A program made the position numbers and the translations under genes. The notes under the pieces were generated by a model. It saw nothing but the letters and a program-made list of their open reading frames with translations. It was not told the origin of the DNA and did not search any database. DNA of 64,000 nucleotides from Escarpia spicata (lineage: Eukaryota; Annelida; Polychaeta; Sabellida; Siboglinidae), in assembly GCA_963995525.1 (NCBI GenBank), contig OZ023205.1, forward strand, positions 41,211,879-41,275,878. The letters are read 5' to 3'. This document shows positions 28,133 through 62,700 of this stretch, piece after piece (the stretch's first letter is position 1; each line of letters starts with the position of its first letter).

Positions 28133-28240
28133 CTGAAAGGTAAATATAGACAACCGTGATTGACACATAACAACGCGGGAATAATAGAGGCGAGACGTCA
28201 CAGGTAGTTTACGTGAAGAACACTGTGATTATAGTATGAT

Positions 28241-29454: not shown

Positions 29455-29511
29455 GACATCCGCGCACGCGCCTCGTCCCTTCAGTCGCAGCATGGTCGTG
29501 AAGACAACAGC

Positions 29512-29883: not shown

Positions 29884-29892
29884 ACGACGAAG

Positions 29893-30560: not shown

Positions 30561-30766
30561 ACACCCCTCGTGCGGAGACGGTCTCGAATGAGCCCGTCCG
30601 CTCTACCTACACCACCGTCGTCGACCAGTAAGTCGTGGGAGCGTCTCGAATAAAAGAGGCGCACCGTCTCGATTCACCGACAGTCTAACACGTCGTCTGT
30701 TTACCGGTGTGCTTACGCTGGACTTCCCATCGTTTGCAGGATTATCATCGATTATATCATGCGATC

Positions 30767-31660: not shown

Positions 31661-31673
31661 CAGTCGTCCACGC

Positions 31674-32766: not shown

Positions 32767-32770
32767 AGAG

Positions 32771-33190
32771 ATGAATTACACCGACTACTACAGTCGTCAA
32801 GCGGGCGGTGCGCTTCCTTATTTCGCGGGTGCTCGACGCCAACGAGGACACGGACTGGGAAGTCTATTCGGAGGTCTACTGCGCAGCGTCATGCCGCTCG
32901 TCAAGAGAGGCGCCGTGGCGTTGGGAAGGAGAGCTCTGACGACCGGCGCACGCATAGCCGACGACGTCCTGTCGGGACAGAACATCAGAACGGCCGCCAA
33001 ACGTCGCGTCACCACTGCAGGTAGAGAAATGATAAGCAACCTCTTGACCCCTGGCGTGCAACCTCGTAAGCGTATAAGACGTACACCCGCTGCGAAACGA
33101 GTCAGTACACCCGCGAGACGTCGAAGGAAGCAGCAGAGACCGAGGACACGTCGTGAACCAGATATATTCGACGATGGCGTTCGTTCATAA
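32771..33190 (+). CDS. Basic pVI-like virion protein (copy B)
   Basis: 139 residues. The N-terminal half has a Gly-rich amphipathic stretch (RGHGLGSLFGGLLRSVMPLV) and the C-terminal half is strongly Arg/Lys rich. The layout is reminiscent of adenovirus-type membrane-active or core proteins, but this is by pattern only. The start is 4 bp after the penton stop, and the end overlaps the capsid ATG at 33174. Confidence 0.6.
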   Translation: MNYTDYYSRQAGGALPYFAGARRQRGHGLGSLFGGLLRSVMPLVKRGAVALGRRALTTGARIADDVLSGQNIRTAAKRRVTTAGREMISNLLTPGVQPRKRIRRTPAAKRVSTPARRRRKQQRPRTRREPDIFDDGVRS

Positions 33191-34255
33191 ACTATCGTGC
33201 GAGGGACTCAAGAGCGAACTCGATGTCTTCACCGTGCCTCTGACTCAGACCAGCATCATCGAGAGTCGCACGGTCCACTACCAACCGATGTCCTCGCTCG
33301 ACTCGGGTGGGCCGATCGAATTCATCGTACCCGGTTCGGGAGACGATCACCAGGATCTCACCAGCACGACGCTACACGTTCAGGCGAAGGTGACGCGTGC
33401 CGACGGAACCGATCTCGATCCTGCCGATCCCGTTGCTCCCGTGAATAACTGGCTCCATTCTCTGTTCAGTCAGGTCGACGTCTACCTGAACGGAACGCTC
33501 GTGACTCCCTCGACCAACACGTACCCGTACCGCGCCTACATAGAGACGCTGTTCAGTTACGGCAACGATGCCAAGGAGACGCATCTGACTAGTCAGATGT
33601 GGTACAAGGACACGGGCAATCGTATGGACGCCGTCGTCATTGACGGTGCCGATGCAGCAGCCAACGCGGGGTTCGTCGCCAGACGCAACATGATCGTCCA
33701 GAGTCGCGTGGTCGACATGATGGGTCGTCTCCACGTAGACCTCTTCCACCAGGATAAACTCCTCGTCAACGGCGTCGAGGTCAAGATACGGCTGGTGCGC
33801 AGCAAGGATGCGTTCGCACTGATAGCCGGTGGGGCCAACCCCGCCTACAAGATACAGCTCGTCAACGCTACACTGTTCGTCAGGAAAGTCACCCTGAACC
33901 CGAGCTTGCAGATGGCACACATCAAATACCCGCCAAACCTTTCCAGCCCGACTTCGACAACGACCTCTTTGTTAGGTCCTACCATAACCTGTTCACCTCG
34001 ACGGGTAAGGCGTGGCAGGACGAAGGTAACGGCTTGTCTCGCTACGACTTTCGACACGGCTACACCTTCTTCGCCGTGGACCTCACCCCCGATGCGTGCG
34101 ACGACTGCTGCTTCCATCTGGTACATAAGGGCAACGTGCGCATCGAGGTTCATTTCCACGACGCGATGGCAACCACTGTGAACGTCGTCGCCTACGCCGA
34201 ATTCGAGAATGTGCTGGAGATCGACAGGAGTCGTAACGTCATCTACGACAACTGA
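33174..34255 (+). pseudogene. Major capsid protein, double jelly-roll (copy B, internal deletion)
   Basis: From ATG 33174 the first jelly roll is open for about 250 residues (NWLHSLFSQVDVYLNG). After MAHIK (about 33925), roughly 185 bp present in copy A are missing, and the frame changes. The second jelly roll's end, CFHLVHKGNVRIEVHF, is read in another frame to the TGA at 34253-34255. The family is the F54H12.2-like Polinton capsid protein. Confidence 0.87.
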
Positions 34256-34707
34256 TGGAAACCATACAGCTCGTCCGCCTACTCACCCGTGATACGCACG
34301 TCCGTGTCGTCATGCGCGGGATCGTACCCCAAGACGTACTCCTCAAACTCCGGATAGACGCTTACCCCGTCGCCTTCGTATGCAACACGCACGACGCGGA
34401 TAAACCCGGCGAACATTGGATAGCGATCTACGTAGACGACAACGATCGCGGCGAATACTTCTGCTCGTACGGCTTGCCACCGCAGCACGTCGAGTTTTGC
34501 CGCTTCTTGAATAAACATTGTGTAACGTGGACTCATAATTCTAAGAGACTGCAGAGCCCCGTGTCTAACGTTTGTGGACAATAGTATGTTGCTTATCTCA
34601 TGTTTCGTTGTCGTGGAGTTGTCATGAAGGATTTCGTAAAAGGTTTCGGCACTGATCTGGTCGCAAACGATTGCCGCGTATTCGATTGGCTTAAACAAGT
34701 GCAATAA
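34255..34707 (+). pseudogene. Adenain-like cysteine protease (copy B, catalytic Cys lost)
   Basis: The ATG overlaps the capsid stop. The His motif GEHWIAIYV is present (His 54). The acid motif reads FCSYG, where FDSYG is usual. The catalytic block reads VCGQ, then a TAG stop, then Tyr where the nucleophilic Cys should be. So both the acid and the Cys are gone and the protein is truncated at residue 109. Sequence after the stop still encodes the old C-terminus to about 34707. The enzyme would process virion proteins during maturation. Confidence 0.8.
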
Positions 34708-34915
34708 CCGTGTTTCATTAACGAATAGATATCATCATCATCGTCATTATACTACGATTCGAGCCGTAAGCTCACGGCCTCTGGCGCGGTGTTCACTCAC
34801 CCGTAAGTCGTACCGTCATCACCCTACGAGCCACTGACATGGTCGTATCGATCCCTAAGCTCATGACCTCTGTCGCGGTGTTCACTCACCTACTTGATGT
34901 TCGTGCGCTTCGCTT

Positions 34916-34962
34916 AATAAAACACGGTTTCATGTTATAGGCTTGTATCTTTCATCAATAAA
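34916..34962 (+). terminator. Two AATAAA polyadenylation signals (copy B)
   Basis: AATAAA at 34916-34921 and 34957-34962, at the same places relative to the protease gene as in copy A. Confidence 0.55.
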
Positions 34963-35133
34963 ATACGTGTGCACTCGTATACACTTGTGTTTCGTTAGTT
35001 CTTTCATACACGAGCATTCATACACACTAATCACACTCTCTCTACACTAATCACACTCTCTCTACGCTTCCCGTGAGGGGGACGTCACCTACTATTTCAC
35101 CTCTGACGTAACCGACAGGTGGCGCCTCTCGTT

Positions 35134-35257
35134 ACACATACGGTCACGTGACTACTCACTTTACTCAGGGGGGCGGCTTTCGAAACCTCCCTAGTATCTC
35201 TCAAAAATGACCAAAACCCACCACAGGATACCGATTCAAAAACTCGTATTCACTACT
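35134..35257. repeat. Right terminal inverted repeat of copy B
   Basis: Inverted partner of 27136-27259, ending TTCACTACT next to the duplication. Confidence 0.95.
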
Positions 35258-46749: not shown

Positions 46750-47590
46750 GAGTTGAATCCGTGAAGTTGAGTCTCCCGCATGTGAAGCATTGCCATGGGG
46801 TTTCGCGTTTTAGACCTTTTTAAGACTACAGTTGCCACACCTAGGCAAGTCTTATGGTACCAGGTGTTGCAGTCGTCAGAATCAACTGATGGATTCGTTT
46901 TATACCACGTGACTGCACGTTCGCATATTCCACATGATAATTTTGGTTTTAGTTTAGTTTTTGGGGGTCACCTCTACATCTCCACTGGTGAGGAGCGTGT
47001 GATTTCCGGTTGAGGTTGGGCCGAAGTGAGTAGAAAGTGGGTTTGCAACATCTACATTAATGTAACTATAATCCAGGAATTTATTATAATGACAAAATAT
47101 ATTTGTAATGTACCACTAGATGCCATTCCAATAAAGCCATGCGATTTTGAAAACTTATACTAAACTTTTAAAAGTGCAAGGGTTGGTTTAGTGCAATAGA
47201 ACCAAATAATAGTTTATATGATATTTTTAGTTCTGGACCGACTCAGCACATAGATAAAGGGCCTGTTAGTGACTCAACAGGTAATAGGACTGAGGAGGGA
47301 AGGTTAGTTTTGTTTAATGGTTGCAAGCTGTGCCTATGTACTTTTTGTTTATGCGTATACACTGGTTGATGTGTTGGGGATGATTTGGTTTCGTGTGCTT
47401 TCATTATTGTTTACACCTACGCCATCTTGTTTTGAAAAGTTTGGGCTGTTGTTAAGCAAAATAATTTAACATGCACGTATAGTGGTGATGATACTATTGT
47501 TCGTCTGTCAATTTTAGGTAATGACAATCATTAGAATTGGTGAAATTAAGTGCCAACGTAGGAGAGGGAAAAAAAAGACAACACCTGACG
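46750..47590. other. No feature recognised
   Basis: AT-rich intergenic sequence without a supported feature. Confidence 0.5.
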
Positions 47591-48305
47591 CATGTGCACT
47601 TGACCACGAGGGCCTCGATGGTCCGAAAAGGAGCGACGTTTGCAACTGCGTATCTAAATTTACCGTAGGATTGTGCACTGTGTGCATAGTCACGGTCTAG
47701 TACGTCAACTCTGCCAAAGCCTGGTTGTCTACTCGGTGGTACTGGATGTGTATATGCCCAGTTGTCGATACCTCCTTCGTACTCTTGGGCTGTATGGACT
47801 GGGCGACTATCTGTTGTTCCTGGTGTGACAATCGCTATAATACCCAGGCCATGGAATGTGTCATTCCCATCTAGGGTCCTGATGGGTCGATGTTATCAGC
47901 TGCATACTGAACAAATGCAATGGTTTAGCTGGTTATGTCAGTGCCTTGATCTATAGCCGCATTCTGTCAAAACCGTTTGACCCCTTTGTACGAACTACAG
48001 AATCCGTGATTGTGAAGCGAGTCAATGAGAAAACGAGATGTAAAATGATGATGTAATTGCACTGTTAATGCAGTTTTAAGTAGGGCAAACAAAACCCGTG
48101 GTCGCGCTGCTTGTATGATGGCTTTTCCAATGGATGCTTCCTTTACACCAACATCTCTTCCCTTCATGATTCTTTCAAGCAACATCTTCAAACTAGAAGG
48201 TAAGTAGCCGAGACAAGCTTCTTCAGATTCGATTTTATTTGACGCTGGGTATGATTCATATGACGTGTCTACTGCTTTGTTGCCCTCCCGTATGAACTTT
48301 TCAGC
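47590..48305 (-). pseudogene. Fragment of the same uncharacterised family as 8117-8894
   Basis: The minus strand from 48305 reads AAEKFIREGNKAVDTSYESY and LPSSLKMLLERIMKGRDVG, then HHHFTSRFLIDSLHNHGFC to 47967. In shifted and stop-broken frames it continues with VQYAADN, FHxMG-like and TVSR-like pieces to about 47590. I recall these blocks from the middle of large, unnamed invertebrate proteins whose N-terminal part resembles the 8-kb fragment. The fragment begins within a few bases of the left end of the giant inverted repeat. Confidence 0.5.
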
Positions 48306-48379
48306 AGCTAAAATGGGTAAGTTGGACTTTGAAAATAGGGCAACACTTAAATTCGATTAATCGTAAATGTATACGACCA

Positions 48380-48720
48380 CTTTTTGAGGCCGAGGTTCCA
48401 TTTTACCCCTATATTTTTAGTCCTTCAAATCCCATGTTAAAACACAGCGAAATTTACCTACATTTTAATTTTTCGAGTGTTCGATTTACCCCAAATGTCT
48501 TTAAAAAACAAAACTGTCCTACCAATTTTCTCCATGTTAAAGGATAGGGAAATTTTCCCCATGATAGAAGATAGGTCATTTTTGTCATGTTAAAGCATAG
48601 GAGCTTCCAAATTACCCCAAAATATCCTCTGAAATCTGTCCTACCAATTTTCTCCATGTTAAAGGATAGGGAATTTTCCCCATATTAAAGGATAGGTGCT
48701 ATTATCGTAAAGGTATTCGA
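48380..48720. repeat. CATGTTAAAGGATAGGG modules, left arm outer zone
   Basis: Several spaced copies of CATGTTAAAGGATAGGG(A) with TTTTCCCC-like spacers. The inverted counterparts are at about 60285-60600. Confidence 0.8.
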
Positions 48721-49079
48721 CAACTTTTTTGAAACAAATAAAATATACCGAACAACATTTGAACCTGTCACACACGAGATTGCTTGGCCCGTAGGCCGAG
48801 GCTCCACCAAGGGACCGAGCCCATAGAGCGACCATCTTGGAATTAGACCTTTGGTATCATTTCCGTACGGTAGTTTTTCTCTACGTTAAAGAATAAGGTA
48901 ACTTCTCCATCTTAAACGTCAATTCTCTTTATCGTAAATGTATACGACAACATTTTGAGTTTGAGGTGCCAATTTATCTCAGGCTAAACATATAGGCTAT
49001 TGTTATACGGTAGTGGTTAAATTCGTGTCTTTTATAAAACCCGTACTCGAGATGTGTCTGGACATGTTTGTTTGTCGTG

Positions 49080-49610
49080 GGCGTGAGCGCGCGCACCCTG
49101 TACGACGCCATCAAACTGCTACGCGTTGTAATTTTGTAGGCGAGGTGATTTGATCAAACAGGTAGTGATTTGGTTAGACCTTGTTTTGAACACGCGCGCT
49201 TGAATATAATTCCATCATCAGGGTCAATGACGTCATGGTCAGTGACGTCATCAAACTGCTACGCGCAGTAATTCTATTTGCGATGTGATTTGATCAAACA
49301 GGTAGTGATTTGGTTAGAACTTGTTTTGAACTGGCGCGCTTGAATATAATTCCATCATCGGGGTCAATGACGTCATGGTCAGTGACGTCATCAAACTGCT
49401 ACGCGCAGTAATTCTATACGCGAGGTGAGTTGGTCAAGCAGGTAATGATTTGGTTAGACCTTGTTTTGAACTTGCGCGTATGTAATGTAATCACTTCATG
49501 TGACGTCATGATGTAGTGACATCGTTAAACTATAAACTGCTACGCGCCGTAATTTTGTGCGCGAGGTGAGTTGGTTATACAGGTAGTGATTTGGTTAGCC
49601 ATCGTTGGAG
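49080..49610. repeat. About 140-150-bp units with TGACGTCA sites, left arm
   Basis: Repeated units contain GCTACGCGCAGTAATTCTA, GGTAGTGATTTGGTTAG and TTGAATATAATTCCATCATC. TGACGTCA (the palindromic CRE) lies at 49228, 49243, 49368, 49383 and 49501. Right-arm partners are at 59729, 59744 and 59879. Confidence 0.8.
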
Positions 49611-49699
49611 GTCCCAGTTTATCCCTACTTGTTTTACCTCTACATAGCCCATGTTAAAAGATAGGGGCTAAACCTCATGTTAAAGAATAAGGGCTAAAC

Positions 49700-49860
49700 C
49701 CTAGCTGGCCTACAGCTCATAACCACTGACAAACAACTTACAAACACTGATATACAACATACAAACATTGACCTACACCATACTTATACCAACCTACAGC
49801 ACATAACCAGTGCTAAACATTGACCCACAGTCTGTAAACACCGACATACATCATAGGTCA
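49700..49860. repeat. CTACAACA...AACACTGAC short repeats
   Basis: Degenerate units of about 30 bp (CCTACAGCTCATAACCACTG, TACAAACACTGA). They are mirrored at about 59260-59430 and echoed at about 62220-62290. Confidence 0.65.
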
Positions 49861-50451
49861 AACATATAGGCTATTATTATACGGTAGTACGTAAATTCGA
49901 GTGTCTCATAAAACCCGTACTCGAGACGTGCCTGGACATGTTTGATTGTGACGGGCGTGAGCGCGCGCACCCTGTATGACATTATTAAACTATCAATTTC
50001 TACGTATAGTAGTTGTGTGCACGAGGTGAGTTGGTTATACATGTAGTGATTTTGTTGCCATTGTTTTGAACTTGTGCACTTGAACATAAGCCTATCATGT
50101 AATGTTATGGTCAGTGACGTTGTGTTACAGCCAGTGGAAAATTTCCCTGTAAAATGTCATTCTAGAAGTTCGTTTGGTAATTTTAAACAGGTAGCGCTTT
50201 GGTTAGCCATTGTTTTGTGCTTTCGCGCTTGAATATAATTTCATCATATAACGTTATGGTCAATTTCCCTGTAAAATGTCATTCTAGAAGTTTGTATTAG
50301 CTATCATTTGTAAGAATTATATCGAACACTGACTATAAACAAAACCAGTATAAGCCTTTGACCTATAACATTAGCTAACATACGACATTTGTACTTACCC
50401 GCCTTTGTAGCATTACCGATATAGTTAACACTCTTTTGTGAGAATGTGGTT

Positions 50452-50467
50452 GGCTCTAAAAATAACC
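50452..50467 (-). terminator. Histone-type 3' stem-loop c (left arm, degraded)
   Basis: On the minus strand: GGTTATTTTTAGAGCC, preceded by AAAC and followed by AACCACATTCTCACAAAAGAG. It has the layout of the replication-dependent histone stem-loop with mismatches in the stem. It ends the 116-bp-repeat cassette. Confidence 0.55.
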
Positions 50468-50699
50468 GTTTAAAATAAAAAATAAAAAATTAAACTCTTA
50501 TAAAAACACCGACAGTGTAGAAATATACCATCTCCTAAACGGCAAAAGGTCCTACCACACTTTGCCTGTTGTATGTGCAACAGTACCTTCAGCAGAAAGA
50601 GAGATTGGCGTCGACACATCAGTTAGAGCCGGCTCATGCAGTGTATATTTTGTATTGCCACATTGTATTGTCTTCTAATACAACAGAACGGGTGGGTTG

Positions 50700-51320
50700 G
50701 GCTGGCTGAGACGAAGTACATCACCGAAAAGGCCGTCTCCGAGGAGCACATCGCTGCTGCTGACAGTGGTTCAACAAACTCTGCGCTGTCGTCGTCGGTA
50801 ACTAAAAGTACTACGGACTGGCTGAGACGAAGTACATCACCGAAAAGGCCGTCTCCAAAGAACACATCGCTGCTGCTGACAGTGTTTCAACAAACTCTGC
50901 GCTGTCGTCATTGGTAACTAAAGGCACTACGGACTGGCTGAGACGAAGTACATCACCGAAAAGGCCGACTCCAAGGAACACATCGCTGCTGCTGACAATG
51001 TTTCAACACCCTCTGCGCTGTCGTCGTCGGTAACTAAAGGCACTACGGACTGGCTGAGACGAAGTACATCACCGAAAAGGCCATCTCCAAGGAGCACATC
51101 GCTGCTGCTGACAGTGTTTCAACAACGTCTCCGCTGTCGTCGTCGGTAACTAAAGGCACTACGGACTGGCTGAGACGAAGGACATCACCGAAAAGACCGT
51201 CTCCAAGGAACACATCTCTGACGTTTCAACAACCTCAGCGCTGTCGGCGTCGGTAACTAAAGGCACTACGGACTGGCTGAGATCAAGTACATCACCGAAA
51301 AGGCCGTCTCCTGGTTCAAG
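50700..51320. repeat. 116-bp tandem array, left arm
   Basis: Units starting GGACTGGCTGAGACGAAGTA lie at 50815, 50931, 51047 and 51163 (exact 116-bp spacing), with a shorter one to 51270 and a partial first unit at 50700. The unit length is not a multiple of three, so the reading frames across it are not a protein. The array lies between a TATA box and stem-loop c. Confidence 0.9.
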
Positions 51321-51353
51321 ATTCACTTGTCCTATCTTCGTGGTGCCGTTTTC

Positions 51354-51361
51354 TTTTTATA
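51354..51361 (-). promoter_or_regulatory. TATA box of cassette 1 (left arm)
   Basis: TATAAAAA on the minus strand, followed by GAAAACGGCACC. Upstream lies the shared promoter module with CACGTGGGCGTGCCGAAAG. Confidence 0.7.
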
Positions 51362-51384
51362 ATCGTTCGATGGAACATAACGTT

Positions 51385-51475
51385 CACGTGGGCGTGCCGA
51401 AAGATCACCGACTTCAGAGGACAAACTACACATGCGCAGACGATAGATTAGAAAAGTCAAGCACGGACTTAAGAG
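51385..51475 (-). promoter_or_regulatory. Shared upstream promoter module with CACGTG (left arm, cassette 1)
   Basis: The block CACGTGGGCGTGCCGAAAGATCACC...ACACATGCGCAGACGATA recurs before each cassette: left arm 52390-52470 and 53214-53290, right arm about 56475-56545 and 57785-57870. It is a candidate common enhancer or core-promoter element. Confidence 0.65.
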
Positions 51476-51991
51476 TAGACATTATAGGTACAGACTGTAG
51501 AGTAAAAATAGCTTTCAACACAGATTCATCGTACTATAAACAATTTGGTACCAATCGTATTTGAAGTAGAAGTGTGTTAATTAATCAACATTTTGAGCTT
51601 TCTAGTACGTAATTTAATCCCAATCCAGATATTTTTCCCCACAATATGTAATTTCATGAGTGACGACGTTAAAACAATTCTTGATAATATTTTCATACGA
51701 TAGTACCTAAATTCGTGTATTTTATAAAAAAAAACCTGTACTCGAGATGTTTCTGGACTTGTTAGTTTATTGTTGTGGGCACGAGTGGGTGCAACGTGTA
51801 TGACAGCAAAGCTATTATAGTTATTTGGTTAGCTATCATTTGTAAGAACTATATTGAACACTGACGTTATATTTACGTTGTATCTTGGTCAAAAACTTTG
51901 ACCTACAACATTAGCTAACATAAGACATTTCTACTTACCTGACTTTATAGCAATACCGATATAGTTAACAATCTTTTGTGAGAATGTGGTT

Positions 51992-52007
51992 GGCTCTGAA
52001 AAGAGCC
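51992..52007 (-). terminator. Histone mRNA 3' stem-loop a (left arm), perfect
   Basis: On the minus strand: GGCTCTTTTCAGAGCC, a perfect six-pair stem with a TTTC loop, preceded by AAAAC and followed by AACCAC. This matches the metazoan replication-dependent histone stem-loop bound by SLBP. A purine-rich CACAAAAGA stretch about 12 bases downstream is a candidate histone downstream element for U7. Confidence 0.85.
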
Positions 52008-52038
52008 GTTTTGTTTCTAGATTTAGCGTGTAGAGAAC

Positions 52039-52336
52039 ATAGCGTGTACTGATATATTTCTTCACTGACTTCGTTCCCTCACTATCAATGTGCTTAGCAA
52101 GTTCGCCGGGCAGAAGCAGACTGACGGCCGCCTGGATTTCTCGCCCAGTAAAACAAGCGCTCGACGAATACGAGCCAAGAGACGATTCCCCAGCTATACG
52201 TTCAAATATGTCGTTGACGAATGAATTCATGATGCTCATTCCCTTGCTGGTGATCCCAGTGTATGTACTGTTTGAGCACTTTGTAGATGTAGATTCCGTA
52301 ACTCTCCCTCCTTCGTCGGCGGTGCTTCTTGTCGCC
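52039..52336 (-). pseudogene. Histone H2B-like, left arm (frameshift, stop lost)
   Basis: The minus strand encodes [10 protein letters not shown] and [14 protein letters not shown] five-base deletion near 52262 shifts frame to [48 protein letters not shown] and [10 protein letters not shown]. These are the alpha1-L1-alpha2 and C-terminal helix motifs of H2B. The segment between (SYSSSACFT) differs from canonical H2B. The usual stop position holds TAT, so the frame runs on through the 3' stem-loop. The N-terminal tail before GDKK is missing. The 3' stem-loop is about 35 bp beyond. Confidence 0.85.
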
Positions 52337-52344
52337 TGTAAACG

Positions 52345-52360
52345 CACAGCTTTTATTTTA
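52345..52360 (-). promoter_or_regulatory. TATA-like element of the H2B cassette (left arm)
   Basis: AAAATAAAAGCTGTGC on the minus strand lies directly before the H2B sequence. It leaves no room for the normal N-terminal tail, so it is either a promoter fused to a truncated gene or chance AT sequence. Confidence 0.4.
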
Positions 52361-52891
52361 CAACAAACGTCGCTCGAATGTGCATAACGGTCACGTGGGT
52401 GTGCCGAAAGATCACCGACTTCAGAGTACAAACTACACATGCGCAGACGATATATTAGAAAAGACAAGAACGGACTGCTGAATAGAATGTACATAAGTAC
52501 GGACTGTGGAGTAAAAATAACTTTCAACACAGACACATCGTACTTTAACAAACTGGTACCAATCGGATTTGAAGTAGAAGTGTGTCAATTAGTCAACATT
52601 TTAAGCTTTCGTGATTGTAATTTAATCCCGATTCATATATTTTTCCCCACAGTATGTAATTTCATCAGTGACTTCGTTAAAGCAATTATTGATACTGAAA
52701 TGTTTCTAGACTTGTTTGTTTGTTTGATTGTTACAGGCACGAGTGGGGGCAACGTGTATGACAGCTATATATTTATGTAATATCTTGGTCAAATCCTTTG
52801 ACCTATAACATTAGCTAACATACGACATTTGTACTTACCCGACTTTGTAGCAATACCGATATAGTTAACACTCTTTTGTGAGAAGGTGGTT

Positions 52892-52907
52892 GGCTCTGAA
52901 AAGAACC
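52892..52907 (-). terminator. Histone-type 3' stem-loop b (left arm)
   Basis: On the minus strand: GGTTCTTTTCAGAGCC, with one G-U pair in RNA, preceded by TTTAAAC and followed by AACCACCTTCTCACAAAAGAG. It ends the 41-bp-array cassette. Confidence 0.75.
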
Positions 52908-52954
52908 GTTTAAATTCAAAAAACAATTCAAACTGTTATACGGTATAAATAAAG

Positions 52955-53132
52955 CACACCGGCAGCGAGCGGACGAAGGCAGTGAAAAAATTAAGCACAC
53001 CGTCAGTGAGCGAACGAAAGCAGTGAAGAAATTAAGCACTCCGTCAGTGAGCGAACGAAGTCAGTGAAGAAATAAAGCACGCCGTCAGTGAGCGAACGAA
53101 GGCAGTAAAGAAATAAAGCACGCCGTCAGCGC
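52955..53132 (+). repeat. 41-bp tandem array derived from H2B C-terminal codons, left arm
   Basis: About four units of AAGCACGCCGTCAGTGAGCG plus AACGAAGGCAGTGAAGAAAT. Read on the plus strand one unit spells KHAVSERTKAVKK, closely matching the H2B C-terminal helix KHAVSEGTKAVTK. The H2B-like gene nearby is on the opposite strand, so the array is antisense to the cassette's promoter and stem-loop. The 41-bp unit breaks the frame each time. Confidence 0.85.
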
Positions 53133-53138
53133 GGTTTT

Positions 53139-53146
53139 CCTTTTAT
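53139..53146 (-). promoter_or_regulatory. TATA box of cassette 2 (left arm)
   Basis: TATAAAAG on the minus strand, followed by GAAAACCGCGC. It is spaced about 240 bp from stem-loop b. Confidence 0.65.
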
Positions 53147-53376
53147 AGCAGTTCGATGGAACATAAAGGTCAAGTGCTAAAAGAATATGGATTGTAGGAT
53201 AGTACATAAAGGTCACGTGGGTGTGCCGAAAGAACACCGACTTCAGAGTACAAACTACACTTGCGCAGACGATAGATTAGAAAATTCAAGTACGGACTAC
53301 ATAGTAAAATAATAACCTGACATTGGTAACTGAAAATGGTCTCATAGAGATATACATAGATCCAATTTGACTACAA

Positions 53377-53484
53377 TGAATAAAGACTGGTTGACTATTG
53401 TGTTAGACGCACGTCTTAAACTAGCCGACGAACAGTTGTGTAATATCAATACTTGGATGCAAGACTCCGTTTCGAAACAGTGGT
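53377..53484 (+). CDS. Short frame conserved between arms
   Basis: ATG opens about 35 codons (MNKDWLTIVLDARLKLADEQ...) ending QW and a TGA. The right arm has the inverted counterpart at about 56375-56268 with only a few changes. Both stop at the same TGA. It could be an exon or a small peptide, but conservation may only reflect the age of the arms. Confidence 0.3.
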
Positions 53485-53854
53485 GAAACACTATGAAACA
53501 AATGGTTCTGACAATAATGGGGGGTGACATGTAAAGAACTTTCTTTTATCTTATACACGATTAAATTTGGCAAGACTCTGTATCAATGTCTAGTCTCTGG
53601 TTCTTGTAGTTATGGAGCGTGACATGTAAATACGTTTGTGTTGTTCACGAATACACTGTGCAAACCTCATCTTGTGTCTTTTTCATAGTGTAATGCAAAG
53701 CATATGCTGAGAACCTTACTAATAGTCTTACACTTCACAATTAAAGATATGCTATCAGCATTGTCAATATTAGCGTCATCGATTTGCGTAAAACAGGTTC
53801 TTGTGCGATATGAAAGACACACGAACAGTACCATGGATCAACCTTAACCAAACT

Positions 53855-54309
53855 AAGACGACTACGGAACTTGTACGTTGTATGAATTGAACTCAGACCA
53901 ACTAGTTGTACGAACGAAACACTACACTTTGACCAATACGCTGCACGAATTGAACTCAGACCAACCAGTCGTACAAACGAAACACTACACTTTGACCAAC
54001 AGGTTGCACAAATTGAACTTAGACCAACTAGTTGTACAAACGAAACACTACACTTTGACCAATACGCTGCACGAATTGAACTCAGACCAACTAGTAGTTC
54101 AAACGAAACACTACACTTTGACAAATACGCTGCACAAATTGAACTCAGACCAACTAGTTGTACAAACGAAACACTACACTTTGACCAACAGGTTGCAGAA
54201 ATTGAACTTAGACCAACTAGTTGTTCAAACGAAACACTACAATTTGAGCAAAACGCTGCAGAAATTGAACTCAGACCAACTAGTTGTTCAAACGAAATAC
54301 GAAACTTAA
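53855..54309 (+). repeat. 63-bp (21-codon) tandem array, left arm inner end
   Basis: Seven units start at 53886, 53949, 54012, 54075, 54138, 54201 and 54264, exactly 63 bp apart. The plus-strand frame is open throughout and spells variants of ELNSDQLVVQTKHYTLTNTL. There is no ATG in that frame after the stop at 53854, so translation would need splicing. The other strand is also open for 127 codons. The right-arm partner is at 55565-55865. Confidence 0.85.
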
Positions 54310-54395
54310 TGGGTTACTGCGTCAAAGTAAACCAAAACGAGGCAAATAGATGGTTTACCGTGTGAGATTCCATCAATTTGAAGGAATTCCATCAG

Positions 54396-54428
54396 AAAAT
54401 ATAAAATTTTCTGAAAATTTTATATTTT
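54396..54428. other. Perfect hairpin at the left edge of the spacer
   Basis: AAAATATAAAATTTT and AAAATTTTATATTTT are exact inverted partners around CTG. The hairpin sits at the point where homology between the arms stops. Confidence 0.8.
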
Positions 54429-55475
54429 GTCCCTCTGGGACAAAAACATAAATTTTTCGCGAGATTAACCACAAGTTTTTTTCTCTATCTAACCCTAATT
54501 ATAAATTGTTTACCTGCTAGATGGTACCATCGTGTACTTCAATTATCAACTAGGGGGCGCTACGCCGGATGTGATGTCATACCGGAAGTCATTTAACTGT
54601 CATGGCGGCCTCTACCAGGAACGCTACGCGGGAAGTTACATCGTACCGAAAGTTATTTGAATGTCATGGCGGCCTGTCATGGTGGCTTCTATGGTTTTAC
54701 CATTTCCGGAAGAGTGTCGACGAATAGAGATATGTCATTTTCGGTAGATGGCGTTATTCTGAGTAGTTACATTGCTATCCGTTGGAGCCCTCGGATGTCA
54801 CCTGTCTCATGAACGTGCACAGTTTTTGTGTTAAGGGAAGTCACGTGATGTATGTTCGATCTGATTGGATATGCAAATGAGATGATGCCGAAAACTAATG
54901 TATATATGTAAGTCCTACCAACACTAAAAATGTCTCTGTCGTAGTCTCGTGCGCTAAGTTTGGTAGAGATGTCACGCGGTAAACTGTCAAATTGTATGAA
55001 AGAGGTGAGATGTCTCGCAATGAACTCTCGAATTTCCTGAAAGAGGTGAGATGTCACGTGATAACCCGTTAAGTTTTGTCTAAAACTGCCTGTGTATCTA
55101 GGTCGATTGATTGAATTTGCCTACTTATCTTCGTCGATTGCCTGAATTTGCCTGAAACTGCCTGTATATCTTGGTCGATTGTCTGAATTTGCCTGAAACT
55201 GCCTGTGTATTTTGGTCGATTGCCAGAATTTGCCTGAAACTGCCTATGTATTTTGGTCGATTGCCTGAATTTGCCTGAAACTGCCTGAAACTGCCTGTAT
55301 ATCTTGGTCGATTGCCTGAAACTGCCTGAAACTGCCTGTCGAATTGCTTGAAAGTGGAGGGAATTGACGCGATAACACGTCTATTTGCTCCCTTTTGATG
55401 GAATCTCACGCAATAAGTAGTCTATTCTTATGGAATTCCGTCAAATTGATGGAATCTCACGCGATAACCCGTCTA
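54398..55475. other. Spacer between the arms
   Basis: About 1.1 kb unique to the centre. No transposase or other recognisable gene is encoded. Its right half is a 41-bp repeat array and two copies of a GATGGAATCTCACGCG motif. Confidence 0.7.
55085..55345. repeat. 41-bp tandem array in the spacer
   Basis: TCGATTG starts units at 55134, 55175, 55216 and 55257 (41-bp steps), each with GAATTTGCCTGAAACTGCCTG. One unit is longer by 10 bp. The Ser/Gly/Arg frame on the minus strand follows the repeat only. Confidence 0.85.
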
Positions 55476-55564
55476 TTCTGATGGAATTCCGTCAAATTGA
55501 TGGAATCTCACACGGTAAACCGTATATGTGCCTTGTTTTGATTGAATTTGAAGCAGTAACCTAT

Positions 55565-55865
55565 TAAGTTTGGTTTTTTGTTTGTACAACTAGTTGGTCT
55601 GAGTTCAATTCGTGCAGCGTGTTGGTTAAAGTGTAGTGTTTCGTTTGTACGACTAGTTGGTCTGAGTTCAATTCGTACAGCGAATTGGTCAAAGTGTAGT
55701 GTTTCGTTTGTAAAACTAGTTGGTCTAAGTTCAATTTGTGCAACCTGTTGGTAAAAGTGTAGTGTTTCGTTTGTACAACTAGTTGGTCTGAGTTCAATTA
55801 GTGCAGCGTATTGGTCAAAGTGTAGTGTTTCGTTTGTACAACAACTATTTGGTCTGAGTTCAATT
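55565..55865 (-). repeat. 63-bp (21-codon) tandem array, right arm inner end
   Basis: Inverted partner of 53855-54309, with about five units. The minus-strand frame 55797-55564 keeps the ELNSDQLVVQTKHYTLTN pattern. A stop interrupts the farthest unit. Confidence 0.85.
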
Positions 55866-56594
55866 CATTCAACGTACAAGTTCCGTAGTCGTCTTAGTTT
55901 GGTTAAGGTTGATCCATGGTACTGTTCGTGTGTCTTGCATATCGCACACGAACCTGTTTTACGCAAATCTATGACGCTAATATTGACAATGCTGATAGTA
56001 TATCTTTAGTTGTGAAGTGTAAGAATGTTACTACGGTTCTCAACATATGCTTTGCATTACACTATGAAAAAGACACAAGATGAGGTTTGCACAGTGTATT
56101 CGTAAACAACACAAACGTATTTACATGCCACGCTCCATAACTACAAGAACCAGAGACTAGACATTGATACAGAGTCTTGCAAAGTTTTATCATGTACAGG
56201 ACAAAAGAAAGTTCTTTACAGGTCATCGCCAATTATTGTCAGAACCATTTGTTTCATAGTGTTTCACCACTGTATCGAAACGGAGTCTTGCAACCAAGTA
56301 TTGATATTACACAACTGTTCGTCGGCTAGTTTAAGACGTGCGTCTAACAAAATAGTCAACCAGTCTTTATTCATTGTAGTCAAATTGGATCTATGTATAT
56401 CTCTATGAGTCCATTTTCAGTTACCAATGTCAGGTTATTATTTTACTCTGTAATCCGTTCTTGAATTTTCTAATCTATCGTCTGCGCATGTGTAGTTTGT
56501 ACTCTGAAGTCCGTGATATTTCGGCACACCCACGTGACCTTTATGTACTATCCTACAATCCATAATCTTTCGGCACTTGACCTTGACGAACTGC

Positions 56595-56603
56595 TATAAA
56601 AAG
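56595..56603 (+). promoter_or_regulatory. TATA box of cassette 2 (right arm)
   Basis: TATAAAAAG followed by AAAACCGCGC, with the CACGTGACC promoter module upstream. Confidence 0.65.
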
Positions 56604-56610
56604 AAAACCG

Positions 56611-56822
56611 CGCTGACGGCGTGCTTTATTTCTTTACTGCCTTCGTTCGCTCACTGACGGCGTGCTTCATTTCTTCACTGACTTCGTTCGCTCACTGACG
56701 GAGTGCTTCATTTCTTCACTGCCTTCGTTCGCTCACTGACGGCGTGCTTCACTGCCTTCGTTCGCTCACTGACGGCGTGCTTCATTTCTTCACCGCCTTC
56801 GTCCGCTCGCTGCCGGTGTGCA
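56611..56822 (-). repeat. 41-bp array of H2B C-terminal codons, right arm
   Basis: Inverted partner of 52955-53132. The minus strand spells KHAVSERTKAV repeatedly. Confidence 0.85.
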
Positions 56823-56867
56823 TTATTTTTACCGTATAACAGTTTTAGTTGTTTTTTAAATTTAAAC

Positions 56868-56883
56868 GGTTCTTTTCAGAGCC
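56868..56883 (+). terminator. Histone-type 3' stem-loop b (right arm)
   Basis: GGTTCTTTTCAGAGCC after TTTAAAC. Here it lies only 33 bp before the H2B-like frame. About 500 bp present in the left arm between these points is missing. Confidence 0.75.
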
Positions 56884-56915
56884 AATAAAATAAAAGCTGT
56901 GCGTTTACAGGCGAC

Positions 56916-57212
56916 ATGAAGCACCTTCGACGAAGGAGGGAGACTTACGGAATCTACATATACAAAGTGCTCAAACAGGTACACCCATACACTGGGATCA
57001 CCAGCAAGGGAATGAGCATGATAAATTCATTCGTCAATTATATCTTTGAACGTATAGCTGGGGAATCGTCTCTTGGCTCGTATTCGTCGAGCGCTTGTTA
57101 TAGTGGGCGAGAAATCCAGACGACCGTCCGTCTGCTACTGCGCGGCGAACTTGCTAAGCACATCGATAGTGAGGGAACGATGTCAGTGAAGAAATATATC
57201 AGTACACGCTAA
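56916..57212 (+). CDS. Histone H2B-like protein, right arm, open frame
   Basis: 98 residues: a basic start, [19 protein letters not shown], then [42 protein letters not shown] and [14 protein letters not shown]. The histone-fold helices of H2B are recognisable. The stretch [10 protein letters not shown] replaces the usual basic loop, and the acidic-patch-to-C-terminus helix is diverged. The ATG aligns with a Lys codon in the left arm, and a CAG precedes GCGAC, so the true N-terminus may be lost. An intact frame followed at 31 bp by a histone stem-loop suggests possible expression. Canonical H2B is about 122-125 residues. Confidence 0.8.
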
Positions 57213-57243
57213 GTTCTCTACACGGTAAATCTAGAAACAAAAC

Positions 57244-57259
57244 GGCTTTTTTCAGAGCC
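57244..57259 (+). terminator. Histone 3' stem-loop a (right arm)
   Basis: GGCTTTTTTCAGAGCC, one C-to-T change from the perfect left-arm stem-loop, with AACCACATTCTCACAAAAGAG downstream. Confidence 0.75.
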
Positions 57260-57892
57260 AACCACATTCTCACAAAAGAGTGTTAACTATATCGGTATTG
57301 CTATGAAGTCAGGTAAGTACAAATGTCGTATGTTAGCTTATGTTATAGGTCAAAGGATTTGAACAAGATACTACGTAAATGTAACGTCAGTGTTCAATAT
57401 AGTTCTTACAAATGATAGCTAACCAAATAACTATAATAGCTTTGCTGTCATACACGTTGCACCCACTCGTGCCCACAACAATAAACAAACAAGTCCAGAA
57501 ATATCTCGAGTACAGGTTTTTTTAAACATAAAATACACGAATTTAGGTACTATCGTATGAAAATATTATCAAGAATTGCTATAACGTCGTCACTGACGAA
57601 ATTACATACTGTGGGGAAAAATATCTGGATTGGGATTAAATTACGTACACGAAAGCTCAACATGTTGGCTAATTGACACACTACTACTTCAAATACGATT
57701 GGTACCAAATTGTTTATAGTACGATGTATCTGTGTTGAAAGCTATTTTTACTCTACAGTCTGTACCTATAATGTCTACTCTGAAGTCCGTGCTTGACTTT
57801 TCTAATCTATCGTCTGCGCATGTGTATTTTGTCCTCTGAAGTAGGTGATTTTTCGATACGCCCACGTGACCGTTATGTTCCATCGAACTACC

Positions 57893-57900
57893 ATAAAAAG
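57893..57900 (+). promoter_or_regulatory. TATA-like box of cassette 1 (right arm)
   Basis: ATAAAAAG followed by AAAACCGCACC, with the CCCACGTGACC module upstream. Confidence 0.6.
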
Positions 57901-57944
57901 AAAACCGCACCACGAAGATAGGACAAGTGAATCTTGAACCAGGA

Positions 57945-58440
57945 TACGGCCTTTTCGATGATGTACTTGATCTCAGCCAGTCCGGAGTGCCTTTAGTTAC
58001 CGACGCCGACAGCGCAGAGGTTGTTGAAACGTCAGCGATATGTTCCTTGGAGACGGTCTTTTCGGTGATGAACTTTGTCTCAGCCAGTCCGTAGTGCCTT
58101 TAGTTACCGACGAAGACAGCGCAGAGGGTGTTGAAACATTGTCAGCAGCAGCGATGTGTTCCTTGGAGTCGGCCTTTTCGGTGATGTACTTCGTCTCAGC
58201 CAGTCCGTAGTGCCTTTAGTTACCGATGACGACAGCGCAGAGTTTGTTGAAACACTGTCAGCAGCAGCGATGTGTTCCTTGGAGACGGCCTTTTCGGTGA
58301 TGTACTTCGTCTCAGCCAGTCCGTAGTGCCTTTAGTTACCGACGACGACAGCGCAGAGTTTGTTGAACCACTGTCAGCAGCAGCGATGTGCTCCTCGGAG
58401 ACGGCCTTTTCGGTGATGTACTTCGTCTCAGCCAGCCCAA
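57945..58440. repeat. 116-bp tandem array, right arm
   Basis: Inverted partner of 50700-51320, with about four to five units (CAGCCAGTCCGTAGTGCCTT). Confidence 0.9.
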
Positions 58441-58667
58441 CCCACCCGTTCTGTTGTATCAGAAGACAATACAATGTGGCAATACAAAATATACACTGCA
58501 TGAGCCGGCCCTAACTGATGTGTCGACGCCAATCTCTCTTTCTGCTGATGGTATTGTTGCACATACAACAGGCAAAGTGTGGTAGGACCTTTTGCCGTTT
58601 AGGAGATGGTATATTTCTACACTGCCGGTGTTTTTAAAGAGTTTTAGTAGTTTTTTTTATGTTAAAC

Positions 58668-58683
58668 GGTTCTTTTCAGAGTC
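58668..58683 (+). terminator. Histone-type 3' stem-loop c (right arm)
   Basis: GGTTCTTTTCAGAGTC with AACCACATTCTCACAAAAGAG downstream. One stem mismatch. Confidence 0.65.
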
Positions 58684-59549
58684 AACCACATTCTCACAAA
58701 AGAGTGTTAACTTTATCGGTTTTGCTACAAAGGCGGGTAAGTACAAATGTCGTATGTTAGCTAATGTTATAGGTCAAAGGCTTATACTGGTTTTGTTTAT
58801 AGTCAATGTTCGATATAATTCTTACAAATGATAGCTATTACCAATTTGTAGAATTACATTTTACAGGGGAATTGACCATAACGTTATGTGATGAAATTAT
58901 ATTCAAGCGCGAAAGCACAAAACAATGGCTAACTCAAGCACTACCTGTTTAACATTACCAAACGAACTTCTAGAATGACATTTTACAGGGGAATTTTTCA
59001 CTCGCTGTAACACAACGTCACTGACCATAACATTACATGATAGGCTTATGTTCAAGTGCACAAGTTCAAAACGATGGTAACAAAATTACTACCTGTATAA
59101 CCAACTCACCTCCTGCACACAAATACTATACGTAGCAATTGATAGTTTAATAATGCTCACGCCCGTCACAAACAAACATGTCCAGGCACGTCTCGAGTAC
59201 GGGTTTTTTATGAGAGACTCGAATTTACGTACAACCGTATAACAATAGCCTATATATTTGACCTATGATGTATGTCGGTGTTTACAGACTGTGGGTCAAT
59301 GTTTAGCACTGGTTAAGTGTTGTAGGTTGGTATAAGTATGGTGTAGGTCAATGTTTGTGTGTTGTATATCAGTGTTTGTAAGTTGTTTGTCAGTGGTTAT
59401 GAGCTGTAGGCCAGCTAGGGTTTAGCCCTTATTCTTTAACATGAGGTTTAGCCCCTATCTTTTAACATGGGTTATGTAGAGTTAAAACAAGTAGAGATAA
59501 ACTGGGACCTCCAACGATGGCTAACCAAATCACTACCTGTATAACCAAC

Positions 59550-59900
59550 TCACTTCGCGCACAAAATTACGGCGCGTAGCAGTTTATAGTTTAACGATGT
59601 CACTGCATCATGATGTCACATGAAGGGATTACATTACATACGCGCAAGTTCAAAACAAGGTCTAACCAATGCACTACCTGCTTGACCAACTCACCTCACG
59701 TATAGAATTACTGCGCGTAATAGTTTGATGACGTCACTGACCATGACGTCATTGACTTTGCTGATGGAATTATATTCAAGCGCGCGAGTTCAAAACAAGG
59801 TCTAACCAAATCACTACCTGTTTGATCAAATCACCTCGCCTACAAAATTACAACGCGTAGCAATTTGATGACGTCATACAGGGTGCGTGCGCCCACGCCC
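59550..59900. repeat. TGACGTCA-bearing units, right arm
   Basis: Inverted partners of the 49080-49610 units, with TGACGTCA at 59729, 59744 and 59879. Confidence 0.8.
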
Positions 59901-60284
59901 ACTACAAATAAACATGTCCAGACACACCTCGAGTACGGGTTTGATAAAAGACACGAATTTAACCACTACCATATAACAATAGCCTATATGTTTGGCCAAA
60001 GATAAATTGGCACCTCAAACTCAAAATTTTGTCGTATACAATTACGATCAAGAGAATTGACGTTTAAGATGGAGAAGATACCCTGTTCTTTAACATAGAG
60101 AAAAACTACCGTACGGAAATGATACCTAAGGTATAATTCCAAGATGGTCGCTCTAAGGGCTTGGTCCCTTTGCGGAGCCTCGGCCTACGGGCCAAGCAAT
60201 CTCGTATGTGACAGGTTCAAATGTTGTTCGGTATATTTAATTTTTTTCAAAAAAGTTGTCGAATACCTTTACGATAATAACTCC

Positions 60285-60600
60285 TCTCCTTTAATATGGG
60301 GAAAATTCCCTATCCTTTAACATGGAGAAAATTGGTAGGACAGATTTCAGAGGATAATTTGGGATAAATTGGAAGCTCCTATGCTTTAACATGGCTAAAA
60401 TAACCTATCTTCTATTATGGGGAAAATTTACCTATCCTTTAACATGGAGAAAATTGGTAGGACATTTTTTTGGGTAGACATTTGGGGTAAATCGAACCAA
60501 CGAAAAATAAAAATCTAGGTAAATTTCGCTATGTTTTAACATGGGATTTGAAGGACTAAAAATCTAGGGGTAAATTGGAACCTCGGCCTCAAAAAGTTGT
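60285..60600. repeat. CATGTTAAAGGATAGGG modules, right arm
   Basis: Inverted copies of the left-arm modules (CCTATCCTTTAACATGGAGA). Confidence 0.8.
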
Positions 60601-60666
60601 CGTATACATTTACGATCAATCGGATTAACGTTTTGCCCTATTTTCAAAGTCCAACTTACCCCTTTT

Positions 60667-61910
60667 AGACCTATACGTTTTGGATGCACATTGGATTGGA
60701 TTGGCGCAATGCCGGAGGAAAATCTGTCAACATCCGGCTATTTCCTTATCTTTTAACATGGGGACCGGAACTACTTTTCCTCTTGCTCAACGGAAAACGG
60801 ATGTTGCCTACGCTGGACCACCTATATTATTACTCAGAGGCGTACCAAGGATTGACATGTTGGGAGTTTCCAAACGGTTTTATGGAGCCGCATATCTTCA
60901 TATCTTCTTTCACCTTGTGGCTGTGGCATTTAATGGGTGGCAGAACCATATGTCTGTCACCCGAGAGAAATTCCAGGAGGCAGGTGCCCCCCTGCCCTCT
61001 TTTCCTGAGCCTATGCACCCTCATCTTTCCCCGTACACATGTACATTGCCATAATATTGGTCACACAAGAAACCAGAAACTCCCCCTGGCTACGCACTTG
61101 ATAAACACAGAACACGTAACTACAAAAGTGAGAGAAACACTAGCTGATTGAGATTAACCCAGTGTAGTCCAAATTATTCGAATTACCAACAGAAGGAAGA
61201 AAATATTATTTTCAGCAGCTATTCTACCCAATGAAAAGAATTAAAGGAGGTAAACTGCGTTAACTATTTTGGTTTGACCAACGACAGGACACTAACATAG
61301 AATAATAAAACCTACAACGTGACTAAGAAGGCTAACAACTCAAGAGCTATCCTACAGTGAAACACCAACGGATGATCCAAGCCATCCGCGCGTTATGCTA
61401 CCAGACATTCGTATGACCATCGAGGAATACGCGTCGATAGTATGGGATCCATCCGCGAAGAAGAATATCATCTACCGGTGGAAAATGCTCAACAACTAGC
61501 AGCTCTTTCGCTAAGAACGACTACCGTCGATGATGCATTGTGACCGATGATAGGGCATTCTGATCTTCCTAAACTTCACAAACGCGATATAGGCTAACCT
61601 ATGTACCTTAAGCGGCGCTATACCACCTGCTTTCAACAGCGACGTTCCACTCAAGCTTGACAATATAACCAGATACACGTGGCTAACATAGAGTGATCAG
61701 CTAGTCAGAAGGAGAACATAAATCTACAATTGAATGTTGAATTAGCATTTCCCATGGCACATACATACATGTTATAATCGATAAGTATATGGATGGGCAA
61801 TGCATCACAACGTTATTGCTATTATTTTTATGTTAATACGCAGGCAGGATGGACAGGCATATCTTACAAATTACGTCAGTAGTTATATAGGTGGTCCAGC
61901 GCGGGCAATG
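60667..61910. other. No gene supported
   Basis: Overlapping open frames at 60680-61151 have no recognisable motif and look accidental. One CTTATCTTTTAACATGGGG word at about 60750 belongs to the inverted-repeat module family. Confidence 0.5.
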
Positions 61911-61914
61911 ACGC

Positions 61915-62700
61915 GGGATGGAGCAAATCCCATGTTAAAAGATATGATTTTCTTCCATGGCGCTCCCGTGTTAAAAGATAGGGAATTTTTCCCAATCATA
62001 AAAGATAGGGATTTTCCCCAGGACGCTCCCAGATTAAAGGATAGGCCATTTTTACCCCATGTTAAAGGATAGGGAATTGTCTCCATGTTAAAGGTTAGGA
62101 GCTATTATCGTTAAGGTATTCGACGATATTTTGACTAGGAGATTCCAGTTTATCCCTACTTGTTTTACCCCAACATAACCCATGTTAAAGCGTAAGGCCT
62201 AAACCTCATGTTAAAACATAGGCCGACCTACAACACATAACCTGTGCTAAACATTGACCTACAAATCTGTAAAACACTGACATACATAACTGGTCAGACA
62301 TTAGACCAGTGTTATTAAGTAGTGGTTAAATTCGTGACTTTTAAATATATGAGAACTGCCAAAATTCGTGTCTCTTGCGCGCATGCGTGCAATGGAGCCC
62401 ATGACGGATAGGTAATGAACTACAAACATCTCTGGCGGAGAAATGTTGAACTATATATACGAGTACAGGCAAAATTCGTGTCTCTTGCGCGTTTGAGTGC
62501 AATGGAGCCCCCTAGTGCTTTGGTTAGCCATCGTTTTGAACATGCGCACTTGAATGTAATCCCATCATATGACGTCATGGGACGCGCAGTAATTTTGTAG
62601 GCGAGGTGAGTTGGAAAAACAGGTAGTGATTTGGTTACCATCGTTTTGAACTTGCGCACTTGAATGTAATCCCATCATGTGACGTCATGGTATGCGCAAT
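61915..62700. repeat. Third, partial copy of the inverted-repeat element's outer modules
   Basis: CATGTTAAAGGATAGGG modules, CAGTTTATCCCTACTTGTTTTACC, the AACACTGACATACAT stretch and two TGACGTCA units (62570, 62680) occur in the same order and direction as in the left arm, with gaps. It is outside the 12.36-kb palindrome. Confidence 0.75.

Follow-up and report, generated by a model that had tools for sequence, protein, structure and literature searches.

A 64,000-nt stretch of the genome of the siboglinid annelid Escarpia spicata (C1:41211879-41275878; hereafter the window) contains at positions 48308..60834 a near-palindrome of 12.5 kb (12,527 bp as it stands), whose arms of 6.1 and 5.2 kb are 94.5% identical and enclose a spacer of about 1 kb. 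Comparison with related copies makes it highly probable that this is one copy of a large non-autonomous, foldback-structured transposon family with Maverick/Polinton ends. The assembly searched comprises 1.06 Gb in 1,097 contigs; names such as C1 and C9 refer to its chromosomes, and C1_41 stands for the insertion on C1 near 41 Mb.

Self-BLAST of 48308-60668 returned minus-strand blocks of 1,964, 1,550, 1,238 and 1,155 columns with 90-94% identity, and global alignment of 48308-54400 with 55420-60668 gave 94.45% identity over 5,151 aligned columns. The best minus-strand self-match reached 2,911 bits, whereas 20 shuffles of 47001-62000 that preserved dinucleotides gave at most 36 bits. This confirms the inverted repeat and puts it far outside what chance would produce. 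The left arm (48308..54400, plus strand) is truncated at its outer end, while the right arm (55420..60834, minus strand) has the terminus 5'-AGTAATAATATAGGTGG reading inward, placed by alignment with other copies. The spacer (54401..55419) contains further arrays of 41 and 51 bp, found by Tandem Repeats Finder (TRF), and has homologous stretches in other family copies. Four tandem arrays are common to both arms (left-arm positions on the plus strand): a 140-bp array of 3.5 units (49104..49598; right arm about 59521-59876), a 116-bp array of 5.3 units (50702..51311; 57942-58435), a 41-bp array of 4.5 units (52947..53129; 56613-56828) and a 63-bp array of 6.6 units (53885..54297; 55576-55866). 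TRF detected the last three in both arms, and the 140-bp array in the left arm, its right-arm copy being found by BLAST. The 140-bp array also occurs, at 86%, in a gene-bearing Maverick on C8 (locus L027); the locus comparison behind this match and the spacer homology left out L001-L004, L006 and L008, which lie inside C1 copies. Since four of the six gaps of at least 30 bp in the arm alignment (140, 116, 126, which is 2 x 63, and 529 bp) match array units or a cassette stretch, much of the difference in arm length is due to the copy number of the arms' own arrays; the other two gaps measure 33 and 53 bp. An earlier note on this DNA had described mirrored arms built from tandem arrays and histone parts. 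Both halves of that description stand, the second on account of the TRF and BLAST arrays, an H2B-like open reading frame (ORF) in each arm and a stem-loop recognized by Rfam.

The ends of the element were located by comparison with other copies. A genome search with 491 bp of the left end gave at least 85 matches (40 of 1,782 candidates scored), and 25 ends, including both window ends, were aligned from 20 fetched stretches representing 14 places. Homology to other copies extends 166 bp past position 60668 to 60834, where unique sequence begins, and the end reads 5'-AGTAATAATATAGGTGGTCC. Twenty-two of the 25 ends start with AGTAGT (14) or AGTAAT (8, which belong without exception to the window or to the C1 41-Mb copies); the others are AATAAT (right end of C1_41.37), AGAAGT (C1_35.21) and the truncated left end of the window copy. 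The C1 sister copies keep both ends (AGTAAT...), and the family form is AGTAGT...ACTACT. In the window the left terminus (166 bp) is deleted. The 78 bp preceding position 48308 (48230..48307, plus strand) match at 96% a flank about 1.74 kb outside the sister copy at C1:41.37 Mb, so about 1.9 kb was lost here, with CTAAAA at the join. The ends proposed earlier (48310 and 60666) thus had to be corrected: the real right end is at 60834, and 48308 is a deletion scar and no terminus.

The hexamer CAGAGG directly adjoins both sides of the four C1 sister copies (41.06, 41.37, 41.48 and 41.60 Mb), and the window copy retains the right one only (60835..60840, plus strand). As the flanks of the C1 41-Mb copies are 95-98% alike, the window copy and its four sisters are segmental duplications of one insertion. 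An empty counterpart was found on C8: positions 8210223-8210511 align with the joined flanks of the C1 insertion at 91%, continuously over the junction, with a single uninterrupted CAGAGG and no element in the 121 bases fetched. This is a paralogous locus and no allele. We compared the flanks of 11 two-ended copies, counting C1_41 once. Exact 6-bp direct duplications were present in six (CAGAGG, CACCGG, CATGTT, GTGGCA, GACACT and GATATT), the copy L045/L046 matched in five of six positions, and none of the 11 end pairs had direct repeats of 7, 8 or 9 bp (10 bp was not tested separately). Cross-pairing of left and right flanks from different copies yielded 6/6 matches in 2 of 110 combinations, namely left C9_8.165 with right C9_8.244 and the reverse. 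These palindromic copies (C9:8164902-8175791 and C9:8244048-8253048) lie 80 kb apart and have swapped target duplications; their mirrored flanks comprise 804 bp (97%) plus 672 bp (93%), and 476 bp (98.5%). They look as if an inversion had taken place between both copies, which would leave exactly this arrangement. The suggestion that the palindrome is a large foldback-like mobile element, to be checked by searching the genome for further copies and empty sites, is well supported by these data: further copies share the ends of this one, target duplications of 6 bp accompany them, and there is an empty site.

Among vertebrate Mavericks, as described in the excerpts of PMC8097293, the commonest end motif is (AGT)2//(ACT)2, and intact elements have 6-bp duplications. 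Because both the ends and the duplications of our family fit these published Mavericks (AGTAGT at 14 of 25 ends; the C1 insertion differs from it by one change), Maverick genes were sought between the ends. As probes (E 1e-4) we used eight ORFs from the Maverick region that the window itself contains at 22-35 kb. Three of them have name-bearing Pfam matches, two ATPase-like (one above the cut-off) and one integrase (rve, below the cut-off); other probe ORFs we presume to be penton-like, capsid-like and protease-like, names that have no family match behind them. Inside the same terminus, locus L027 contains ORFs similar to the ATPase, to two further Maverick ORFs and to the integrase. Its integrase matches Pfam rve (PF00665) at 1.4e-11, and the ATPase-like piece matches no Pfam family. 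Further inward, locus L059 has a penton-like ORF and a 536-aa ORF with no Pfam match of its own. In a protein-database search with the latter (7,999 candidates scored), the 120 relatives listed mostly had 44-50% identity, two reached 65 and 68%, and many carry PF03175 (DNA polymerase B, PolB). The outer arm of L027 matches the window's right arm in the same order at 92% (240 columns), 86% (974) and 87% (163), so that about 1.5 kb of outer arm with 86-92% identity is common to the window element and a gene-bearing Maverick on C8. A genome search from the L027 arm (40 of 2,272 candidates scored) agrees with this link, the best matches after itself being C9_8.244, C1_35.21 and the C1 41-Mb copies including the window.

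Other copies add to this picture. L048/L049, a two-ended element of 7.7 kb with the duplication GATATT, has Maverick ORF pieces inside, and so have C9_8.165, C9_8.244 and C1_35.21 (one end seen). The probe matches of L022 fall outside the C3_38.36 element. At C2:44446229 (L060) an exact end is followed on its inner side by an integrase, at a distance of 4.25 kb, and then by a PolB-like frame; its similarity to the window arm (342 bp at 80%, array-type sequence) is a weaker link than that of L027. In the fetched C1 sister copies (L009-L016, with the window copy present in short loci only) none of the eight probes matched. For this reason we consider the element a non-autonomous Maverick derivative rather than a Maverick proper. 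It lacks the integrase, PolB, ATPase and capsid genes of an autonomous Maverick/Polinton as far as these probes reach, and a Pfam scan of 7 of the 17 ORFs listed in the element region returned only a histone match above cut-off.

Several observations weigh against a Maverick-derived origin. No integrase or polymerase was found in the element, whose mobilisation in trans is putative. The terminus of the C1 insertion reads AGTAAT and not AGTAGT, and the data on the gene-bearing C8 copy cover the right end but neither the left one nor the target duplication. By eye, an integrase of the C8 type lies within 5 kb inward of just one of 100 listed ends (C2:44446229), a lower bound as these are 100 of 1,195 ends, and among the listed integrase matches most similar to the window's own, none was seen within 5 kb inside a listed end. 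Four of the 11 two-ended copies (C9_8.165, C9_8.244, C3_38.36 and L039/L040) have inverted flanks and no direct duplication. Finally, the mode of palindrome formation is read from anatomy alone.

Potential sources of an integrase are present in the genome. The C8-type integrase has at least 136 matches (136 of 3,042 candidates scored) and the PolB-like ORF of L059 at least 81 (81 of 2,344); Pfam PF03175 itself is a poor polymerase probe here, with one match (91 of 246 candidates scored). Many of the integrase and PolB-like matches have equal scores and long open frames. The Maverick population of this genome is large and apparently young. The window itself holds Maverick-like genes at 22242-35255 (ATPase-like ORFs and the integrase with rve below cut-off, besides ORFs we take to be capsid-like), together with a 122-bp inverted repeat (27138-27259/35255-35134, 98%). 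Because this repeat starts differently and the integrase shares about 42-53% of its residues with the L027 integrase, the region was assigned to another Maverick family and rejected as partner of the foldback element.

Considering the ends and outer arms, the histone-type cassettes are cargo of host-type sequence, and they include a fragment of H2B together with the stem-loop belonging to it. Three units lie on one strand of the left arm, and in each of them a promoter-like block and a 3'-end block enclose a body, the bodies being the 116-bp array, an H2B-like frame and the 41-bp array. The promoter-like cassettes lie on the minus strand at 51375..51477 (unit 1, with a CACGTG block and TATAAAA; right-arm counterpart about 57720-57920), 52383..52474 (H2B unit) and 53204..53306 (unit 3; about 56445-56610). 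The right arm repeats the three units, except that the 529-bp gap has removed the promoter block that precedes H2B and a portion of the 3'-end block in unit 3. A histone 3' stem-loop with downstream element was identified at 51967..52012 (minus strand; Rfam Histone3, 37.1 bits, gathering threshold 34), and six stem-loops including this one fit the canonical form with three mismatches at most. Stem-loop matches and cassette alignment place further 3'-end cassettes in the left arm at 50280..50490 (unit 1, a stem-loop variant) and 52760..52930 (unit 3), both on the minus strand, and in the right arm at 57220..57440 (H2B unit) and 58650..58880 (unit 1), both on the plus strand. In the conserved 3'-end block (51800-52030 and equivalents) the splice-donor-like GGTAAGTA follows the stem-loop in all five aligned cassettes.

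The H2B frame itself reads as a decayed pseudogene by comparison of arm copies. It is split over two frames in the window's left arm (52042..52333, minus strand), one of four such arms among the five left arms, and open over 98 aa in the right arm (56916..57209, plus strand), where the first 22 residues of a generic H2B are unmatched; where this frame has its first Met, all five other arm copies in the comparison have Lys. One of the six arm copies has a stop codon. Among the 15 pairs of these copies most differences are non-synonymous, the change counts being small, and of the 12 pairs with dS above 0 ten have dN/dS values of 1.18-4.33 and two of 0.97-0.98. An intact frame under purifying selection was thus not found, and a working H2B was rejected on account of the split frames, the stop and the dN/dS values. 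The protein has at most 73% identity to the 120 listed of 1,382 H2B matches. Among the listed relatives of H2B and the PolB-like ORF are sequences from siboglinid tubeworms or from a contig recorded as that of a tubeworm endosymbiont, and those of H2B come also from fish, mammals and sea urchins. A tandem histone cluster of the host (C4:36.722-36.859 Mb), which mostly repeats every 7,867 bp and in which many H2B matches score identically, matches the H2B cassette at 75% through the stem-loop region. Inverted pairs of the cassette at C3:33.818/33.821 Mb (93%) and C12:35.384/35.388 Mb (87-88%) point to further putative palindromes at C3:33.82 and C12:35.39 Mb.

To get an idea of family size, AGTAGTAATATAGGT was searched genome-wide with up to one mismatch, which gave 1,195 matches versus 287 for the reversed control. 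Reading through 100 listed end places, we counted 17 pairs that face each other at distances of 2.2 to 21.9 kb. The arms differ in length between copies, from about 0.2 kb at 79% in L048/L049 and 186 of 846 bp in C12_12.55 to at least 1.3 kb in L032/L033 (1.5 kb examined per end) and about 2.9 kb in C9_16.4 (6.1 kb); in C9_8.165 (10.9 kb) the arms nearly meet around a 94-bp centre. The inner module 53310-53870 (40 of 1,020 candidates scored) recurs inside five other elements with both ends listed (C3:22.196, C2:44.119, 44.243, 48.059 and 49.479 Mb). It is also present in two inverted copies at C13:46.739/46.746 Mb, where Maverick outer-arm homology is present on both outer sides, although not traced as far as the terminus itself. 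At window position 61878, 1 kb beyond the element, another end of the family begins (AGTAGTTATATAGGTGGTCCAGCG, reading right); it runs out of the window, and the sister loci at 41.37 and 41.48 Mb have near-identical ends at the corresponding position. Within the sister copies, the one at C1:41.60 Mb (L015/L016) is 17.5 kb long with ORFs of 677 and 412 aa not listed in other copies, and the 41.37-Mb copy has its own 333-aa ORF; these are possibly nested insertions.

Regarding the origin of the palindrome, arm trees were computed across the five C1 copies for two regions, with 10 arms in one and 9 in the other (the left arm of copy 41.06 having no match of 500 bp). With 200 bootstrap trees per region, left arms grouped apart from right arms at 95 and 100%, so the palindrome predates the segmental duplications. 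Moreover, in C1_41 and C9_16.4 the palindromic arms lie within one direct target duplication; the unit therefore either was already palindromic on insertion or turned into a palindrome inside one and the same insertion. We infer that the element is mobilised in trans, whereby the integrase of resident Mavericks would act on the AGT ends. The arms may have been extended from the shorter inverted repeat of a Maverick into a near-complete palindrome, and may then have diverged as point mutations accumulated and array units were gained or lost.

Two routes of arm growth have to be considered. Host recombination, by inverted insertion of one copy of the same Maverick-derived element into another or between inverted copies, is a plausible route and the likelier of the two. 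The inverted flanks at C9_8.165, C9_8.244, C3_38.36 and L039/L040 demonstrate inverted rearrangements at these elements, and another family end is only 1 kb away in the window (61878), while the arms enclosed by one direct duplication in C1_41 and C9_16.4 speak against it. The bolder reading, which we rate as less likely than host recombination, is copy-back by template switching in protein-primed Maverick replication, a tentative proposal. Replication would switch template near mid-genome and produce symmetrical DNA with two functional ends, which the Maverick integrase would then fix in the chromosome. It is conceivable, if rather doubtful, that the giant palindromes represent defective-interfering-like (snap-back) genomes of a virus-like transposon, with the histone-type cassettes as acquired cargo. 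If true, foldback transposons, in this lineage at least, would be a fossil record of the defective genomes of a resident virus.

Other explanations of the element fare much worse than Maverick descent. Most foldbacks seem to belong to Mutator, with duplications of 8-10 bp in Tetris (excerpts of PMC4079207). A classic foldback of the Mutator or P superfamily (FB, Tetris or Galileo type), moved by an unseen cut-and-paste transposase, would have the same long repetitive arms, variable length, inversions and lack of a transposase in the copy (excerpts of PMC4079207 and PMC3573991). The duplications, however, are 6 bp long, as opposed to 8-10 bp in Tetris and 7 bp in Galileo according to these excerpts, the ends are AGT...ACT, and a gene-bearing relative has a Maverick-type gene set. 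Neither the Mutator-type 8-10 bp nor the 7-bp Galileo duplication was found in the 11 pairs (10 bp was not tested separately). A Mutator assignment does not fit since the duplication is 6 bp; a Mutator-type foldback was rejected on this length, and a Mutator or P foldback is very improbable overall. Slightly more improbable still is a chromosomal palindrome or histone-derived satellite amplified by recombination, without transposition. Arrays and histone cassettes do dominate the arms, and the five C1 copies are segmental duplications with 95-98% flanks, but there are target duplications, an empty site, copies on other chromosomes and the inner module inside five other two-ended elements. The empty site refutes a simple histone satellite as a full account; amplification by recombination does hold for the local copies on C1. 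The earlier idea of a histone-derived satellite palindrome as the mobile unit was likewise not confirmed, the cassettes being cargo and the ends and outer arms Maverick/Polinton.

Perfect palindromes are a known assembly error, and the palindrome L039/L040 (C1:39128278-39140355), whose 1.5-kb flanks mirror each other at 99.9% and one arm of which contains 544 Ns, could be one. For the window element an assembly artefact, which the earlier note had named as a way to refute its reading, is very unlikely, as judged from the assembly alone, because its arms are 5.5% divergent, do not have equal numbers of array units, and group according to side across five C1 copies.

Up to now most foldbacks have been placed in Mutator, although some, such as Galileo of the P superfamily, belong elsewhere (excerpts of PMC4079207 and PMC3573991). 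Here a foldback family very probably belongs to the virus-like Mavericks by its ends, duplication, empty site and common arms. In the open-licence literature exact phrases for non-autonomous or miniature Polintons/Mavericks matched no paper; seven open-licence papers name both Polinton and foldback, and no such element is described in their abstract openings or excerpts. A mobile element with Maverick ends would show that such elements can turn into giant self-complementary hairpins, and the old question of how foldbacks form becomes testable in a genome with many Maverick genes.

In structure the element is a foldback, long modular inverted arms (6.1 and 5.2 kb, around a spacer of about 1 kb) making up most of it. 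Sea-urchin TU elements also have long modular inverted repeats; their duplication length probably differs from that of the window family. With Maverick/Polinton elements, as far as described in the excerpts of PMC8097293, the family has in common the (AGT)2 end motif, 6-bp duplications and inverted terminal repeats, as well as an outer arm common with a gene-bearing Maverick of the same genome; it differs in its 5-6 kb arms, in histone cassettes and arrays as cargo and in the missing probe matches in the C1 sisters. Tetris of Drosophila virilis is likewise a modular foldback with internal tandem repeats and, in the excerpts of PMC4079207, no conserved ORFs, but has 8-10 bp duplications and arms of up to 1,735 bp and is attributed to Mutator. 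Galileo of Drosophila, following the excerpts of PMC3573991, has long arms with internal repeats, the length of which varies strongly and is greatest in non-autonomous copies, and chimeric copies with unmatched duplications and inversions; unlike our family it belongs to the P superfamily, with 7-bp duplications and arms of up to about 1.26 kb. With its variable arms, chimeric copies and inversions (PMC3573991), Galileo may nevertheless be taken as a close analogy for the behaviour of the family.

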